From Nautiliaceae bacterium (GTDB taxonomy: Bacteria > Campylobacterota > Campylobacteria > Campylobacterales > Nautiliaceae): a DNA stretch of 34,888 bases. The notes under the pieces are model-generated. The model saw only the letters and a program-made list of their open reading frames with translations, was not told the origin of the DNA and made no database searches. This document shows, one piece after another, positions 8,870 to 16,884 of this stretch (position 1 is the stretch's first letter; every line of letters starts with the position of its first letter). Location of the stretch: assembly GCA_027008345.1 (NCBI GenBank), contig JALTBU010000056.1, positions 1 through 34,888 of the forward strand, in the 5' to 3' direction. The translations under genes were made by a program, and so were the position numbers.

Positions 8870-8902
8870 ATTATAAATAAATAATGTGCTTAAAGAGTGC
8901 TT
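8870..8902 (-). promoter_or_regulatory. Promoter of the tetrahaem cytochrome with OmpR-type direct-repeat box
   Basis: On the minus strand, AAGCACT (8902-8896) and AAGCACA (8891-8885) are separated by 4 bp, giving an 11-bp period. Nine AT bases follow, then a perfect -10 box TATAAT (8875-8870), with the ATG about 20 bases past the expected start site. No good -35 box exists; the repeat occupies its place, as in PhoB/OmpR-activated promoters. The box lies in the last codons of the kinase gene. The same half-sites and the same 9-bp gap occur before hao. Confidence 0.6.
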
Positions 8903-10515
8903 TTTTTATTCAAATCAATAATAAATACAGCTCCTTTTTTAGAGTTGTATGCATATAACTCACCATTAAAATGTTGATTTATAATTACTTTGCTCATATA
9001 AAGGCCTATTCCGGTACCCTGAGACTGAAATTTGGTTGTAAAATAAGGCTCAAATATTTTATCTTTAATTTCATTAGGTATACCGCCTGCATTATCTTCT
9101 ATTTCTATTTTTTTTCCATTTATTCTAATCCAGATTTTTCTATTTTTTATATCTCTTTCTTTAAGAACATCAATAGCATTATTTATAATATTCAAAATTA
9201 CCTGAGAAAATTCACTTCTATATCCTAAAACTGGCTCGGTTTTTAAAAATTTAAGTTCTACATCAACCCTGTTTTGTTTAAGCCTTCCTTCGATAAGTTT
9301 AAGTGCTTCTTCTATTATTTCTTTTGGACAAAATTCAACTTTTTTTGTATCTTTTTTAAAGAAATTGGTAAAATCATCTATTGTCTGTGTCATATACTGA
9401 ATCTGAGCGTTTGCCTGTGTTTTAAATTTTTCTATAAATTCAGGAGTTAGTCTGTTTTTTTCTGCTGCAAGTTCAAAATTTTGAATTAAAAGTGAAAGCC
9501 TTGTTAAAGGATGTCTCCACTGATGGGCAATATTTCCAAGCATTTCCCCAAGAGAAGCAAGTTTGCTCTGAGCAATTAACAGCTGTTCTTTTTCCTGCCT
9601 TTTTTCAATTTCTTCTTTTACCCTTTTATCAAGCTCTTTATAAAAAGAATAAAGTGGTTTTGAGAAAAACATACCAAGTGGAACTGCTAAAAATATCGAT
9701 AAAACAAGCATTATTATTGTTAAAGTTTTGGAAATTTGATTTGTTTTATTAATAAGTCTTTTATTTTGTATAAAAATCATCTTGATATTATTAGTTAATT
9801 TTTTTACATATATTTCATCAGTAACGAATCCTTCATCAGTCTGTAATATTTTCTTATTCAAAAAGTAATTAAAGATATCATTAAGATTTTTTTCATTGTA
9901 AATATCTGATGAAAGGATATTTCCTTTATTATCAACTATTATATAATGGTAAAAATTATTATTTTCAAACAAATTTTTAATTAAAGCTTTTACTTCAATA
10001 AATCCTGGGGATTTTTCAATTTTTACCGGGGCAAAAGCTGTAAATTCAATACCGTTTGCTTTAAATTTTTCTTTGAAAAACAAATCTTTATCAGTTTTAA
10101 TATCTCCTATTTTTAAAGATTTACCATTATTATGACAATAAATATTGTTTTGATTTTTTATACAAAAAATTAAATTTTTACCATAACTGTTGAAATAATT
10201 TATCTCTTTTAAATCGCTATTTGAATAAAGCATTGTTTTAAAAACTGATTTTAAAATATCATCATTTGGTACAAAAGTAGAATTAAATATATCATTTTTA
10301 GCAAGTGCAAGAGTGGTATTTTTGATAGTATTTTCTTTTGATTTGTAATTTTTATATATGTTTTCAGCAATTATTTTTATTTTATCTTCAAATTCCTGTG
10401 TTGCAAGTTTTGTAAAAAGGTAAATTGAAGTATAAGTGGTAATTACAATAATAACAAAAGCAAAAATCACAAAAGCAAAAGTCAAATCAAATTTAAAATC
10501 ACTTGAATTTTTCAA
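8890..10515 (-). CDS. Sensor histidine kinase, membrane-bound, Cache-like periplasmic domain
   Basis: A 541-residue kinase. Transmembrane helix 1 (13-35) and helix 2 (263-284) enclose a periplasmic sensor domain of about 225 residues with an alpha/beta pattern like dCache domains. A coiled-coil linker (about 290-322) leads to the dimerisation box with the phosphorylated His331 (NIAHQWRHPL). The ATPase domain follows: N box NIINNA (about 442-447), G1 DNAGGIP (474-480) and G2 GTGIGLYMSK (500-509). The QWRHPL type of H-box is common in Campylobacterota. Its start overlaps the end of the response regulator gene by 17 bases. The ligand is unknown; position between mod genes and the cytochrome supports an oxyanion or respiratory signal, by inference only. 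Confidence 0.92.
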   Translation of the reverse strand: MKNSSDFKFDLTFAFVIFAFVIIVITTYTSIYLFTKLATQEFEDKIKIIAENIYKNYKSKENTIKNTTLALAKNDIFNSTFVPNDDILKSVFKTMLYSNSDLKEINYFNSYGKNLIFCIKNQNNIYCHNNGKSLKIGDIKTDKDLFFKEKFKANGIEFTAFAPVKIEKSPGFIEVKALIKNLFENNNFYHYIIVDNKGNILSSDIYNEKNLNDIFNYFLNKKILQTDEGFVTDEIYVKKLTNNIKMIFIQNKRLINKTNQISKTLTIIMLVLSIFLAVPLGMFFSKPLYSFYKELDKRVKEEIEKRQEKEQLLIAQSKLASLGEMLGNIAHQWRHPLTRLSLLIQNFELAAEKNRLTPEFIEKFKTQANAQIQYMTQTIDDFTNFFKKDTKKVEFCPKEIIEEALKLIEGRLKQNRVDVELKFLKTEPVLGYRSEFSQVILNIINNAIDVLKERDIKNRKIWIRINGKKIEIEDNAGGIPNEIKDKIFEPYFTTKFQSQGTGIGLYMSKVIINQHFNGELYAYNSKKGAVFIIDLNKKSTL

Positions 10516-11149
10516 TTTTATATCCGATTCCTCTTATGTTTTTAATAAAATTCTCATTAAGTTTACTTCTTAGTTTTTTTACTTGCGTTCTTATTGTGTT
10601 ATTACATATATCTTTACCATCCCATACATAATCCCTAAGCCTTTCAAGCTCAACAACCTGACCAATGTTTTTTACCAGCATTTCAAGAAAATATTTTTCA
10701 TTTTGAGTTAAATCAACTTCTTCATCATTATAAAAAAGTTTTAATTTATCTAAATCAAATTTATAATTTTGGGTAATTTTAATTTCATTTGTATTTTTAA
10801 AGACAAGTCTTTTTATTCTAAGTTCAAGTTCTTTTAGCTCAAAAGGCTTTTTAATATAATCAGCAGCCCCAAGTTCAAATGCCTTTTCCACATGATCAAT
10901 ATCAGAATATGCCGTAATAAAAATAACCGGTACATTTTTTGCATAATTTTTTAGCTCATTATAAAGTTCATAACCGTTCATTTCCGGCATATTAATATCA
11001 AGTAGAAATATATCGTAATGATCAGGATAAACTTCTTCCAATGCTTTAAGTGGAGATGAATAATAATCAACTCTGTTATCTTTAAGTTCAAAATAATCTT
11101 TTATCGATTCTCCGATAAATTCGTCATCTTCAACTAAAAGTATTCTCAT
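10499..11149 (-). CDS. OmpR/PhoB-family response regulator
   Basis: A 216-residue regulator. The N-terminal receiver domain has the acidic pair in VEDDE (residues 6-10), the phospho-acceptor Asp51 in LLDINMP, a Thr in FITAYS and Lys in YIKKPF. The C-terminal winged helix (about 128-216) has a recognition helix around NTIRTQVKKLRSKL and the wing GIGYKIE. It overlaps modC by 20 bases at its start and the kinase by 17 at its end, so the pair is translationally coupled to modABC. OmpR-family proteins bind direct repeats with a 10-11 bp period. Such repeats occur at napA, hao and the tetrahaem cytochrome, making this a candidate regulator of all three. Confidence 0.94.
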   Translation of the reverse strand: MRILLVEDDEFIGESIKDYFELKDNRVDYYSSPLKALEEVYPDHYDIFLLDINMPEMNGYELYNELKNYAKNVPVIFITAYSDIDHVEKAFELGAADYIKKPFELKELELRIKRLVFKNTNEIKITQNYKFDLDKLKLFYNDEEVDLTQNEKYFLEMLVKNIGQVVELERLRDYVWDGKDICNNTIRTQVKKLRSKLNENFIKNIRGIGYKIEKFK

Positions 11150-12002
11150 TTATAACCTTTATATTAGGATGAAATGCTTTAGTCGACAGTAAAACATTAC
11201 TTCCAATTTTTAAATTTTTTGCTTCATTTTGGGAAATAACACATTCAACTATACTATTTCCTATACTTATAACAGCTATATTAACAATATCAGCTTTTAT
11301 TATATCAATAACTTTACCTTTTACGGAAAATTTTTCACTTGTTTTTGAATTTATTAAAAGTTTTTTTGCATCACCATATTTTATCTGTTTACCATAACTT
11401 AATTCTAACATATTATCTGCAAGTTTATATATTTCATTAGAAGAATGACTGACCATTATTGTAGTCAAATTAAATTTTTTATGAAAAATATAAAGTTTTT
11501 CCTGTAAATCTTCTCTTCTTTTTTCATCAAGTGCTGAAAAAGGTTCATCTAAAAGCAAAATTTTCGGTCTTCTCATTAAAGCCCTGCAAAGTGCCACACG
11601 CTGTTTTTGTCCTCCGCTTAATGTATTTGGGAATCTATCTTTTAAATTTTCTATACCGCTTAGTTTTAAAAGATTTAAAGCAAAATCTCTGTCTTTATTC
11701 ACATATAAAAGATTTTGTAAAACATTCATATTTGGAAAAAGTGCAAAATCCTGAAAAACATATCCGATTTCTCTTTTTTGAGGAGGCAAAAACTTTTTAT
11801 CATCCATCCATATTTCATTTTCAACATTTATTATACCTTTTGCCTTTTCAAGACCTGCAATAATCCTAAGAAAAGTTGTCTTTCCGCTGCCACTCTCACC
11901 TGTAACTGCTAAAAATTCACCTTTTTTCAGTTTTAAACTTACATTTAATTCCATATTTTCAATAACACCGCTTATTTTTTTGCTTACATTAATATAAATC
12001 AT
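11130..12002 (-). CDS. modC: Molybdate/tungstate ABC transporter ATP-binding protein
   Basis: A 290-residue ATPase: Walker A GESGSGKTT (35-43), Q loop VFQDF (about 82-86), signature LSGGQKQR (128-135), Walker B ILLLDEP (148-154) and H loop MVSHSS. A C-terminal TOBE/MOP-type domain starts near residue 222, as in ModC. It powers oxyanion uptake with ModB. It overlaps modB by 14 bases and the response regulator by 20 bases. Nothing in the sequence distinguishes molybdate from tungstate preference. Confidence 0.94.
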   Translation of the reverse strand: MIYINVSKKISGVIENMELNVSLKLKKGEFLAVTGESGSGKTTFLRIIAGLEKAKGIINVENEIWMDDKKFLPPQKREIGYVFQDFALFPNMNVLQNLLYVNKDRDFALNLLKLSGIENLKDRFPNTLSGGQKQRVALCRALMRRPKILLLDEPFSALDEKRREDLQEKLYIFHKKFNLTTIMVSHSSNEIYKLADNMLELSYGKQIKYGDAKKLLINSKTSEKFSVKGKVIDIIKADIVNIAVISIGNSIVECVISQNEAKNLKIGSNVLLSTKAFHPNIKVINENTFS

Positions 12003-12666
12003 ATTTTCTTCTTTGAGAATGGTTTATAAAATAAACAACAAAAAGCACCAAAAAGCTTATTATAAGTAATATTGCACTGTATATATGGGCTGAATGATAA
12101 TCAAGATTTTCCACATAATCATAAATTGCAACACTTGCAACTTCCGTTTTACCCGGAATTGAACCTCCAACCATCAAAACAACTCCAAATTCGCCTATGG
12201 TATGTGCGAATGTAATTACAATTGCGGTTAAAAGAGAAGGTTTAATGTTTGGTAAAATTACTTTAAAAAGTGTCATTAATCTACCTTTACCGCTTAAAAA
12301 AGAAGCCTCTATTATATTTTTATTAAGTGATTCAAATCCGCTTTGTATCGGCTGTATCATAAAAGGAAAAGAATATATTGCACTTGCTACTACAAGTCCT
12401 GGAAATGTAAAAACAAGTTTAACATTAAAAAGTCTATAAAAAAGCCCTCCTAAAAAAGAATCGGGTGATAAAAATACAAGCAGATAAAACCCAAGGACTG
12501 ACGGAGGCAGTACAATTGGCAAAGCTGTTATTGTTTCTAAAAAAGGTTTTATTTTTGATTTCGTAGATGAAAGAAACCATGCATAAGGAATCCCGACAAA
12601 AAGCAAAATAAATGTTACAATAAATGCAAGTTTAAATGATAAAATAAAAGGTGTTACATCAATCAT
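11989..12666 (-). CDS. modB: Molybdate/tungstate ABC transporter permease
   Basis: A 225-residue inner-membrane permease with about five to six hydrophobic helices. The cytoplasmic EAA-type loop is visible as EASFLSGKGRLMTLFKVILPNIKPS (residues about 141-165), followed by the AHTIGEFGVVLMVGG segment typical of ModB. It overlaps the TOBE gene by 8 bases and modC by 14. It forms the channel that receives the oxyanion from ModA. Confidence 0.95.
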   Translation of the reverse strand: MIDVTPFILSFKLAFIVTFILLFVGIPYAWFLSSTKSKIKPFLETITALPIVLPPSVLGFYLLVFLSPDSFLGGLFYRLFNVKLVFTFPGLVVASAIYSFPFMIQPIQSGFESLNKNIIEASFLSGKGRLMTLFKVILPNIKPSLLTAIVITFAHTIGEFGVVLMVGGSIPGKTEVASVAIYDYVENLDYHSAHIYSAILLIISFLVLFVVYFINHSQRRKYDLY

Positions 12667-13024
12667 TTAAGACCTCTAAAACTGATATATCACTTGACTT
12701 GAAATATAAATATGCATCATTTACAAAATTAATATATTCTTTAAGCATTAAAACTTCTATTTCAAAATTTTTATATAAGCATATAATACTTGCTAAAATT
12801 TCACCTTTTATTATTTTTTGAATACTTACTTTAAGTCTGTTTTCATAATCAAATTTTTGTGAACTTAAAAATAACTTAGTAGGTTTAATATAAAGTTTTG
12901 CTTTTTCACCAATATCAATAGGAATATTTTTTTGTAAAATCAAAACTTTTGCATCATTAAAAATAAGTAAATTTATATTATCAAGACTTTTTATACCTTT
13001 AAGTTCTGAAATTATTATATTCAT
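12659..13024 (-). CDS. TOBE/MOP-like protein of the mod operon
   Basis: A 121-residue protein without signal peptide. The segment VLILQKNIPIDIGEKAKLYIKPTKLFLSS (about 27-55) has the beta pattern of TOBE/MOP oxyanion-binding domains, and the second half (about 62-115) may be a second, degenerate repeat. A TOBE protein at this place, between modA and modB, is also found in Campylobacter mod operons. It may bind molybdate or tungstate in the cytoplasm as a store or a sensor; the function is inferred. It overlaps modA by 4 bases and modB by 8. Confidence 0.75.
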   Translation of the reverse strand: MNIIISELKGIKSLDNINLLIFNDAKVLILQKNIPIDIGEKAKLYIKPTKLFLSSQKFDYENRLKVSIQKIIKGEILASIICLYKNFEIEVLMLKEYINFVNDAYLYFKSSDISVLEVLND

Positions 13025-13734
13025 TGATATCCATATTTTTTAAAAATTTTTTTTGCATCTTTGCTTAATAAAAAATTATAAAATTTTTTAGCACTTTCTT
13101 TTTTTGAAATTAATAATACTCCCTGATTTATAGGCGGATATAAAGAAGAATCAATATCTGAATAATAAAATTTACCTAAATTTTTTATTTTATTTGAATA
13201 AATAATCGATTTACTTATAACACCCACATCAGCTCCGTTTTTTATATAAGAAAGAACTGCCGGTATAGTTTCTGCATAAACAAGTTTATCTTTAATTTTG
13301 TTATATATTTTTGTTTTTTTAAATGCTAAAATAGCACTGTGACCATAAGGTGTAGTATTAGGTTTTGATATTGCAATTGAATCATATTTTGTCAAATTTT
13401 TAATATTTACATTTTTGAATTTAAGAGAAATTATACCAAGAGTTCCTTTTGCATAAATTTCAGGAGCTTTAATTCCTATACCTTTATTATATAAATAATT
13501 AGGATATTTCATATTAGCTGAAAGAAACAAATCATAAGGGGCACCATTTAAAATTTGAGCAGTTAATTTTCCACTGCTTGAAGTAATAAATTTTACTTTT
13601 ATGTCAGGATATTTTTTATTAAATATTTTTACAATTTTTGGCATTACATATGTAAGATTTGCAGCAGTTGCAACATAAATTTGTGAAGCAAAAAGAAACA
13701 AAGAAGTTAATAAAAAAATAATTATTTTTCTCAT
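13021..13734 (-). CDS. modA: Periplasmic molybdate/tungstate-binding protein
   Basis: Solute-binding protein of the ModABC importer, about 237 residues. The signal peptide MRKIIIFLLTSLFLFASQ is followed by VATAANLTYVMPKI, the SSSGKLTAQI oxyanion loop and GAPYDLFLSANM, all ModA hallmarks. I chose the ATG at 13734 because it has a strong GGAGGAG ribosome binding site (13744-13738) and starts a proper signal peptide. An in-frame ATG at 13845 would add 37 residues, but that DNA is the riboswitch and the residues are not signal-like. The ribosome binding site can be sequestered in a hairpin, so translation is probably riboswitch-controlled. Confidence 0.94.
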   Translation of the reverse strand: MRKIIIFLLTSLFLFASQIYVATAANLTYVMPKIVKIFNKKYPDIKVKFITSSSGKLTAQILNGAPYDLFLSANMKYPNYLYNKGIGIKAPEIYAKGTLGIISLKFKNVNIKNLTKYDSIAISKPNTTPYGHSAILAFKKTKIYNKIKDKLVYAETIPAVLSYIKNGADVGVISKSIIYSNKIKNLGKFYYSDIDSSLYPPINQGVLLISKKESAKKFYNFLLSKDAKKIFKKYGYQ

Positions 13735-13737
13735 TCT

Positions 13738-13782
13738 CTCCTCCATAAGGTATTCCCGGGCGGAAATATCCTTATGAAGGAG
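13738..13782 (-). promoter_or_regulatory. Expression platform: hairpin sequestering the modA ribosome binding site
   Basis: On the minus-strand RNA, CTCCTTCATAAGG (13782-13770) pairs with CCTTATGGAGGAG (13750-13738): 13 pairs with one G-U. The 3' arm is the modA Shine-Dalgarno sequence, so the hairpin blocks translation. Its 19-nt loop contains GCCCGGGA (13761-13754), perfectly complementary to TCCCGGGC (13802-13795) in the conserved core of the aptamer. Pairing between them would compete with aptamer folding or form a pseudoknot. The switching logic is inference; the complementarity is seen. Confidence 0.8.
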
Positions 13783-13878
13783 GGTTTCTTTCCAGCCCGG
13801 GAGGCTTAATCTTTTCAGACTAAACCCTATCGGCCACAATTCCATAGCTAAGCCTTAGGAAAAGTGGCTCGAAACCCC
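13782..13878 (-). promoter_or_regulatory. Moco-family riboswitch aptamer (P3-less form) upstream of modA
   Basis: Read on the minus strand. The closing stem is P1, GGGGTTTC (13878-13871) with GAAACCC (13788-13782). A second stem has GCCAC/GTGGC and TTCC/GGAA (13868-13833). A hairpin GGGTTTAGTCT, loop GAAA, AGATTAAGCCT (13827-13802) follows, then the core CCCGGGCTGGAAAG. The E. coli moaA Moco RNA, as I recall it, has the same order: GGCCG, a GGG-hairpin-CCTCCC, then CTGGAAAG before P1 closes. Here GGCCGATAGGG joins the stems directly, so the extra stem (P3) of the E. coli form is absent. In the original description P3-less forms were linked to tungsten cofactor. Downstream modABC fits the family. 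Confidence 0.85.
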
Positions 13879-13887
13879 TTTTTGAAA

Positions 13888-13916
13888 ATTGTATATCAAA
13901 TTTTTTTGAAAGTCAA
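13888..13916 (-). promoter_or_regulatory. Sigma70-type promoter of the riboswitch-modABC transcript
   Basis: On the minus strand, TTGACT (13916-13911), a 17-bp spacer and TACAAT (13893-13888). The expected start site is near 13881, only a few bases before the first stem of the riboswitch aptamer. The fit of start site to aptamer edge supports both calls. Confidence 0.75.
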
Positions 13917-13960: not shown

Positions 13961-13995
13961 AGTGCCTTAATAGTGCCTTGAATCTTAATTATAAC
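13961..13995 (+). promoter_or_regulatory. napA promoter with 11-bp-period direct-repeat box
   Basis: AGTGCCT occurs at 13961-13967 and 13972-13978 (extended: TAGTGCC-TTAA-TAGTGCC from 13960), followed 11 bp later by a -10-like TATAAC (13990-13995) with no -35 box. The half-sites read AGGCACT on the minus strand, the same sequence as in the boxes before hao and the tetrahaem cytochrome, but here in reverse orientation relative to the gene. A further ACTGACACT lies at 13939-13947. It is a candidate binding site for an OmpR-family regulator; the -10 choice is tentative. Confidence 0.55.
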
Positions 13996-14064: not shown

Positions 14065-16884
14065 ATGTCAATGAATAGAAGAGATTTTTTAAAAACAACA
14101 GCTGCTGTTGCAGCAGCGAGCGCAGCAGGATTATCAATCCCAGAAGATGCAAAAGCAGCATCTAACGAGGCACAAGAAGGCTGGCACTGGGATAAAGCTG
14201 TATGTAGATTTTGTGGTACCGGATGCGGAATTATGATTGCTACAAAAGGAAACAAAGTTGTTGCGGTTAAAGGTGACCCTGAAAATCCAGTTAACAGAGG
14301 TATTAACTGTATTAAAGGTTATTTTAACGCGAAAATTATGTATGGTGCTGACAGACTTACACAACCACTTTTAAGACTAAACGAAAATGGTGAATTTGAT
14401 AAACATGCTCCGTTTAGACCTGTAACTTGGAAAAGGGCATTTGATGAAATGGAAAAACAATTCAAAAAATATTACAATAAATATGGACCGACAGCCGTAG
14501 GTGTATTTGGTTCAGGACAATATACAATCCAAGAAGGTTACGCAGCATTAAAACTTGTAAAAGCTGGATGGAGAAGTAACAATATAGACCCAAATGCAAG
14601 ACACTGTATGGCAAGTGCGGTTGTAGGATTTTATCAAACATTCGGTATTGATGAGCCAAGTGGATGTTATGATGACATTGAACTTACTGATACAGTAATT
14701 ACCTGGGGTGCAAATATGGCTGAAATGCATCCGATTCTATGGTCAAGAGTAAGTGATGCTAAACTAAATAATCCTGATAAATATATGGTAGTAAACCTAT
14801 CAACTTACAGAAACAGATGTTCAAATCTTGCAGATATGGAAATTATTTTTAGACCAAATACCGACCTTGCTATATGGAATTACATCGCAAGAGAAATAGT
14901 TCATAGAAATGCTGTAAATTGGGATTTTGTGAAAAAACATACAGTATTTGCTACAGGATTTCCAGACATCGGTTATGGTATGAGAAATCCAAATAACCCT
15001 CATGTAACACCAAAAGAAAAAGACACTGTTGAAAAACAAGTTGCAAAAGTGGTAACAGAAGAAGAAGCTGTTGCACTTAGCCCAATTGGCAAATGGAAAG
15101 CCGGTGATGAAATGAAAATGACTCACGCAAATGGTAAAAAACCATTCTGGCATTGGGAAATCAGCTTTGAAGATTTCAAAAAAGGAGTTGAACCTTATAC
15201 ACTTGATTATGTTGCAAAAATCGCAAAAGGTGATAAAAACGAATCTCTTGAAAGTTTCAAAAGAAAACTTAAAAAATTAGCTGACTTATACTGTGATCCA
15301 AACAGAAAAATAGTATCTTTCTGGACAATGGGATTCAACCAACACGTAAGAGGAAGCTGGGTTAATGAACAATCATATATGGTTCATTTATTACTTGGTA
15401 AACAAGCAGAACCTGGTAATGGAGCGTTTTCTCTAACTGGTCAACCAAGTGCTTGTGGTACAGCAAGAGAAGTTGGAACATTTGCTCACAGACTCCCAGC
15501 AGACTTATTAGTAGCAAATCCTAAACACAGAAAAATTGCTGAAAAACTTTGGAAAGTACCACATGGAACAATCAATCCAAAAGTTGGATATCATTTCTTA
15601 AAAATGATGAGAGAAATTGAAGACGGAAATGTAAAATGGGTATGGGTTCAAGTAAATAACCCATGGCAAAATACAGCAAATGCAAATCACTGGCTAAAAG
15701 CTGCAAGAGAAATGGATAACTTTATAGTTGTTAGTGAATGTTATCCAGGTGTATCTGCAAGAGTAGCTGATCTTATTTTACCAATAGGTATGATTTATGA
15801 AAAATGGGGTGCATATGGAAATGCTGAGAGAAGAACACAACATTGGAGACAACAAGTTGTAGCTCCTGGTATTGCAATGCCTGACCTTTGGACAATTGCA
15901 GAATTTGCAAAAAGATTTAAATTAAAAGAAGTATGGCATGAATGGAAACTTCCGAATGGAACAGTTCTACCTGATGTATTAGAAGAAGCAAAAGCAATGG
16001 GATATAGCCCAGATGATACACTCTTTGATGTTCTATTTAACAGACCTGAATATAGAAAAAATTTCCCATGGCCAGATCCAATTGCAAAAGATGCAGGCGG
16101 CAGAATGCATCCAAATACTGAAGCTGAGGGTGATTTCAGAAATGTTGTAGGAAGCGATGGAAAAGTATTTAAAGGATACGGATTCTTTATCCAAAAAGCT
16201 TTATGGGAAGAATATAGAAAATTCGGTATTGGTCACGGACATGACTTAGCTGATTTTGATACATATCAAAAAGTTAGAGGTCTAAGATGGCCAGTTGTAA
16301 ACGGACATGAAACAAAATGGAGATTTAATGTTGATTATGACCCATATGCAAGAAAATATGCTAAACCTGGTGAAAAATTCGCATTTTATGGACCGCTTCT
16401 TAAAGCACTTAAAAAAGGTGATTTAAAAGGTCCTAAAACTCATAAAAAATATCCTTTGCCAAATAAAGCAAAAATTTTCTGGAGACCATTTATGGTGCAT
16501 CCTGAAGATCCTAAATATGACAACAAAGGTTACAATTTCTGGCTATGTACAGGAAGAGTTCTTGAACACTGGCATACAGGTACAATGACAATGAGGGTTC
16601 CAGAATTATATAGAGCAATGCCAGAAGCACTTTGTTATATGAATCCAGAAGATGCAAAAGAACTTGGACTTAACAGATTTGATTTAGTTGTAATCGAATC
16701 AAGAAGAGGAAAAGTTAAAGCAAGAATTGAAACAAGAGGAAGAAATAAACCTCCAAGAGGACTTGTAATGGTTCCATGGTTTGATGAAAAAATCTTAATT
16801 AATAAATGTACACTTGATGCAACTTGTCCATTAAGTAAAGAGACTGATTATAAAAAAGCAGCAGTTAAAATTTATAAAGCCTAA
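14065..16884 (+). CDS. napA: Periplasmic nitrate reductase, catalytic subunit
   Basis: Reduces nitrate to nitrite in the periplasm with Mo-bis-MGD and one [4Fe-4S] cluster. The 939 residues match the long NapA of Campylobacterota. The Tat signal has Arg5-Arg6 (NRRDFLK). Cluster cysteines are Cys47, Cys50, Cys54 and Cys82 (CRFCGTGC...NCIKG). The molybdenum-ligand cysteine is Cys181 in ARHCMASA. The C-terminal cofactor domain has [17 protein letters not shown]. The ATG at 14065 has SD AAGGAG with 6-base spacing; starting there keeps the Tat motif. It heads the nap operon, divergent from riboswitch-controlled modABC that imports its metal. Confidence 0.98.

Follow-up and report, generated by a model that had tools for sequence, protein, structure and literature searches.

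A P3-less RF01055 (Moco/Tuco) riboswitch family member in the modA leader of one genus of Nautiliaceae

The RF01055 RNAs described by Regulski et al. in 2008 consist of P1, P2 with a tetraloop receptor, P4 with a GAAA loop and a conserved junction, and lie before genes for synthesis, transport or use of the molybdenum or tungsten cofactor. RNAs bearing an additional hairpin, P3, have been linked to the molybdenum cofactor (Moco) and P3-less RNAs ("Tuco") to the tungsten cofactor, with tungsten genes in 17 of 19 organisms carrying a P3-less RNA (PMC2408646). Among the cases named there, the nearest to the RNA analyzed here are a P3-less RNA at mod in Pelobacter carbinolicus and those of Haemophilus ducreyi and Hyphomonas neptunium, two organisms without tungsten genes (PMC2408646). 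The Moco riboswitch of E. coli moaA includes P3 in its functional RNA and has its ribosome-binding site (RBS) among the nucleotides of P1 (PMC2408646). Hosts listed in 2008 are gamma- and delta-proteobacteria, Clostridia, Actinobacteria and Deinococcus-Thermus (PMC2408646), a later survey mentions sporadic occurrence in other lineages (PMC3766115), and T. ammonificans, a bacterium from vents, is reported to have one copy (PMC4227106). We found no literature report of an RF01055 RNA in Campylobacterota, although supplementary lists were outside this search and an unlisted earlier match is thus possible.

To compare the modA leader of a Nautiliaceae bacterium with these systems, we analyzed the 34,888-nucleotide stretch of DNA that contains it (the window). 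A covariance-model search gave an RF01055 match at 13886-13769 on the minus strand (71.9 bits, E 1.2e-15), far above the gathering threshold of 36 bits. All 135 model positions (1-135) were covered, with P1, the two-part P2, the 11-pair P4 with its GAAA loop and the core aligned end to end. RF01055 was the sole Rfam family above threshold in the window, and this match was the only one in the window's own genome bin. Its 3' edge is 35 nt upstream of modA, and modABC lies downstream, as computed from the gene content. Nine homologues of the aptamer score 71-82 bits against the same model. The 5' leader of modA is therefore a genuine member of the RF01055 family. The features of the locus are the following:

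13888..13916, minus strand: sigma-70-like promoter TTGACT-17-TACAAT, start site expected near 13881
13769..13886, minus strand: RF01055 aptamer without P3 (covariance-model match and covariation)
13877-13871/13788-13782, minus strand: P1 (RF01055 alignment)
13859-13853 (CCUAAGG) / 13846-13842 (UAUGG), minus strand: 11-nt tetraloop receptor in P2 (RF01055 alignment)
13827-13817/13812-13802, minus strand: P4, with GAAA loop at 13816-13813 (RF01055 alignment)
13805-13786, minus strand: conserved aptamer core (RF01055 alignment)
13789..13801, minus strand: 5' strand of the anti-core helix, CCCGGGCUGGAAA, within the conserved core
13755..13766, minus strand: 3' strand of the anti-core helix, UUUCCGCCCGGG, within the RBS hairpin loop
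13738..13782 (13782-13770/13750-13738, 13 pairs), minus strand: RBS hairpin CUCCUUCAUAAGG...CCUUAUGGAGGAG, which buries the modA RBS
13744-13738, minus strand: modA RBS GGAGGAG, inside the RBS hairpin
13021..13734, minus strand: modA (ATG at 13734), molybdate ABC transporter substrate-binding protein (TIGR01256, 150.7 bits, cut-off 62.5)
12659..13024, minus strand: 121-amino-acid protein between modA and modB (position conserved)
11989..12666, minus strand: modB permease (TIGR02141, 223.6 bits, cut-off 182.6)
11130..12002, minus strand: modC ATPase, short (290 amino acids; best NCBIfam match TIGR02142, below its cut-off)
10499..11149, minus strand: OmpR-family response regulator (RR) in the mod operon (operon position)
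8890..10515, minus strand: sensor histidine kinase (HK) in the mod operon (operon position)
14065..16884, plus strand: divergent napA, periplasmic nitrate reductase, a molybdopterin enzyme (NF010055, 1406 bits)

The operon order is thus modA-X-modB-modC-RR-HK, X being the 121-amino-acid protein. This protein has no Pfam or NCBIfam match and looks like a small Mop/TOBE-type protein; it occupies the same place in 7 of the genus's 8 genomes as well as in sister genera. A preliminary description of this DNA, made from the letters alone, had proposed the promoter, P1, a two-part stem, the 11-pair GAAA hairpin, the core and a hairpin over the modA RBS, and all of these elements lie where it had placed them. 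For the promoter, 3 such sites were found against 1.7 in shuffles, which makes this call weak alone; at most mod copies in the genus a similar TTGAC/TA-rich promoter occupies the equivalent position.

The window sequence aligns to the model without its P3 hairpin, so that the stem characteristic of the Moco-specific group is lacking. The joint between P2 and P4 consists only of CCGAUA in all ten copies of the genus, all of which are P3-less, and the GAAA loop on P4 and the P2 receptor CCUAAGG...UAYGG are present in 10/10 copies. Downstream, the loop UUUCCGCCCGGG of the RBS hairpin (13766-13755) is complementary to the aptamer core CCCGGGCUGGAAA (13801-13789), and because the resulting anti-core helix and the RBS hairpin cross, they are mutually exclusive. 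Neither the missing P3 nor this complementarity figured in the preliminary description.

We then examined the conservation of the two exclusive helices in the ten homologous leaders. Both were kept in 10/10 copies, with compensatory changes. In the named structure, 10 pairs were changed on both sides, and the compensatory two-sided cells amounted to 29, compared with 9.5 +/- 2.6 in shuffles and 2-4 in slid registers; 95% of the cells were paired, compared with 32-62% in slid registers. Covariation was seen in P2, P4 and the anti-core helix, the latter with a G-C/A-U exchange at pair 5, a C-G/U-A exchange at pair 3 and an outer helix paired in 59/60 cells, while one pair of the RBS hairpin appears as C-G, A-U or G-C. 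The family's P1, P2 and P4 with the conserved junction are thus present together with covariation, and the compensatory changes in the leader therefore indicate selection. The core-loop duplex was more stable in matched leaders (-18.8 kcal/mol) than in swapped ones (-15.6 kcal/mol; permutation p 0.00015, in tests that ignore kinship among the ten sequences), and in each leader this pairing beat 97-99.9% of shuffled platforms. The preliminary description had named an RF01055 score below threshold and a lack of covariation in related genomes as grounds for dropping its proposal; the score is well clear of the threshold and the stems covary in the ten related leaders.

From the computed conservation and covariation of these helices we infer ligand binding and the direction of switching in the cell as follows. 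A molybdopterin metal cofactor, for which the molybdenum form is judged likelier, would bind and hold the aptamer core, leaving the hairpin loop free; the 13-pair hairpin 13782-13738 would then form and bury the modA RBS. Without cofactor, UUUCCGCCCGGG would pair with CCCGGGCUGGAAA, blocking the RBS hairpin and leaving the site open. The order of synthesis is compatible with this scheme, the core being made first, the loop strand second and the RBS last. Because the cofactor would hold the core, the switch is predicted to be OFF in its presence, which is the sense expected of an uptake system, and oxyanion uptake would follow the cofactor level through the leader, as the preliminary description had suggested. 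We consider it probable that the leader of modA-X-modB-modC-RR-HK is a P3-less RF01055 riboswitch acting as a translational OFF switch.

Folding calculations (Vienna energies at 37 C, a model that leaves out the ligand, the tertiary contact and the warm habitat of the family) gave the hairpin state as the minimum-energy fold of the window leader and, unconstrained, the anti-core state for a relative (G382). Across the ten leaders the lowest-energy fold varies, being the anti-core state in some and the hairpin in others, with most within 10 kcal/mol. On leaders trimmed to the expected start site (untrimmed 5' bases give misleadingly low values in some), the openness of the RBS was 0.67-0.99 in the anti-core state in 9 of the 10 leaders and 0-0.2 in the hairpin state. 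The exception is G400, whose short P1 leaves the RBS mostly paired in either state (0.35 open).

Three other accounts of the leader were weighed against a translational switch. Some Moco RNAs use terminators (PMC2408646), and the leader could accordingly act on transcription, through a terminator or Rho; a scan of its minus strand found no terminator-like site, however, and the start codon directly follows the hairpin with no U run, so that we regard this as improbable, with some room left for Rho-dependent coupling. Still less probable is that a ModE-like or other protein reads the leader and the RNA is a mere scaffold: ModE-like proteins do occur in the family, but no ModE equivalog was over the cut-off in the eight genomes of the genus, only G404 having a weaker two-domain relative, and conservation falls on the residues of the known aptamer. 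The window comes from a draft genome bin (87.7% complete, 5.9% contamination), which might suggest that the leader is degenerate or a contaminant and has no current function. Against this, the operon, its neighbours and the leader are alike in all eight genomes of the genus, including one that is 96% complete and has 0% contamination, and the leaders carry compensatory changes, which reduces this account to a negligible chance. Contamination itself was ruled out by the identical operon order in all eight genomes and in a sister genus (g2).

The translational switch preferred here resembles the RNAs of the 2008 study not only in its aptamer but also in the promoter just upstream, the modABC target and the predicted repression by cofactor (PMC2408646). 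It differs from them in its platform, a hairpin apart from the aptamer with a loop that pairs with the core. Translational control is predicted as for E. coli moaA, but the RBS is in this separate downstream hairpin and not within P1. ModE control of modABC likewise stops molybdate uptake when the supply is sufficient, but ModE is a protein that senses molybdate. The sensor is thus an ordinary one of a known class; what is new is the lineage, the covarying two-state platform, which provides a readable ON/OFF device supported by covariation, and the mismatch with the P3 rule.

RF01055 RNAs were then searched for in 21 genomes of the family. They were found in all eight genomes of the window's genus (bins 70-97% complete), in 10 copies, and were absent from 13/13 genomes of four sister genera. 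Genomes sampled from the class, order and phylum (397-399 per sample), searched with stricter filters than the family, gave matches only in the window's genus. This extends the range of the Moco/Tuco riboswitch to Campylobacterota, a phylum that the 2008 survey does not name (PMC2408646), in the form of one hydrothermal-vent genus. The earlier reading of an RF01055 riboswitch controlling modABC in a Campylobacterota genome agrees with the family match, the operon genes, the presence in 8/8 genomes and the covariation; its taxonomic scope was right but narrows to one genus of the family and not the phylum.

In g2, the order napA / modA-X-modB-modC-RR-HK is common to loci L057 and L058 (all seven genes) and to L033 as far as that locus extends. 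The gap between napA and modA is 129-157 bp there, with no riboswitch, and 279-521 bp in the window's genus. Because g2 keeps the napA/mod arrangement without the riboswitch, the leader was either gained in the window's genus or lost in g2 at one fixed site. A search for a donor found none: no plasmid record was similar to the leader, a 14-base aptamer pattern had 26 matches in viral contigs, about what chance gives for a collection of that size by our own estimate, and a search of genome contigs with ModA returned distant relatives only, none with RF01055. One of these relatives, on a Spirochaetales MAG contig, is accompanied by a match to PYLIS_3, the mttB pyrrolysine element (L010, 2156-2255, minus strand).

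The metal we infer from the computed gene content. Like the "Tuco" group, all ten copies lack P3; unlike it, their host genomes are mostly without the tungsten marker genes behind the group's correlation. The wtpA gene was found in 1/8 riboswitch genomes compared with 6/13 sister genomes without the riboswitch, and neither TupB over its cut-off (hence 0/8 in the genus) nor aldehyde:ferredoxin oxidoreductase (AFOR_C) was present in any of the 21 family genomes. In G404, wtpABC (locus L072) has a formate dehydrogenase and a protein regulator as neighbours, with no RF01055 match there. The mod operon, by contrast, adjoins napA in 8/8 genomes. Because AFOR and TupB are absent, wtpA is found in one genome of eight and napA adjoins mod in all eight, Moco is more likely than the tungsten cofactor as ligand, roughly twice as likely in our estimate, bearing in mind that the bins are 70-97% complete, that formate-dehydrogenase-like proteins could use tungsten and that ModABC may carry tungstate. 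The term "Moco-type" used in the preliminary description is not given by the sequence, since P3 is missing, but finds an argument in the gene inventory.

The RNA could instead read the tungsten cofactor, as the missing P3 predicts, with ModABC importing tungstate. ModA-type proteins commonly bind both oxyanions. The formate-dehydrogenase-like proteins present might carry tungsten, P3 is absent in 10/10 copies, and the correlation in 17/19 organisms (PMC2408646) points the same way. We nevertheless regard a tungsten sensor as possible but doubtful: wtpA is missing in 7/8 genomes of the genus and yet occurs in 6/13 riboswitch-free sister genomes, TupB over cut-off and aldehyde:ferredoxin oxidoreductase are found in 0/21 genomes, the wtpABC genes of G404 adjoin a protein regulator and not RF01055, and in all eight genomes of the genus the operon stands together with napA, which encodes a molybdenum enzyme. 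Because 7/8 genomes are without wtpA, TupB and AFOR are absent and NapA is encoded next door, the rule that P3-less means tungsten either fails here or implies tungstate import through ModABC. The presence or absence of P3 is the only clue to the metal published so far, and in these eight genomes it conflicts with the gene content; this disagreement makes the rule directly testable with one short leader.

At L072 (G404:C78, 6279-14493) the genes are formate dehydrogenase, wtpA (379.7 bits to NF003196, over cut-off), wtpC and wtpB; the formate dehydrogenase frame crosses an in-frame TGA, read as selenocysteine, and a divergent 243-amino-acid regulator has a weak ModE match and a LysR-type helix-turn-helix near its end.

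Two genomes, G404 and G401, have an additional RF01055 copy upstream of a second ModA-like protein; in G404, ModB comes after this protein. These second copies share 82-85% identity with the mod leader of G404; because the resemblance includes the platform, the duplication probably took in the entire switch at once. In G404 (L049, G404:C10, 7775-10577), the second copy precedes a 438-amino-acid protein and then the ModA- and ModB-like genes. This protein has no Pfam match; it is a probable outer-membrane barrel and may be a cofactor-controlled porin for molybdate or tungstate.

A ModE equivalog was over the cut-off in sister genera g3 and g4, while g2 lacks both ModE (over cut-off) and the riboswitch; in the window's genus it was over the cut-off in 0/8 genomes. 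The riboswitch may have taken over the role of ModE in the genus. A broader reading, which we advance tentatively, is that sensing tungsten is not a property of P3-less RF01055 RNAs as a class and that here a Moco sensor replaced ModE on modABC and was copied within the genus for a second oxyanion transporter with an outer-membrane porin.

On the napA side of the intergenic region, an 11-bp direct repeat, AGTGCCTTAAT-AGTGCCTTGAA, is found at 13961-13982 on the plus strand, about 100 bp upstream of napA. Its spacing and its place before napA recur in 6/8 genomes of the genus and in g2. Because 11-bp direct repeats suit OmpR-family regulators and the mod operon ends with genes that include one such regulator (10499-11149), the repeat is a candidate binding site for this type of regulator in the control of napA.
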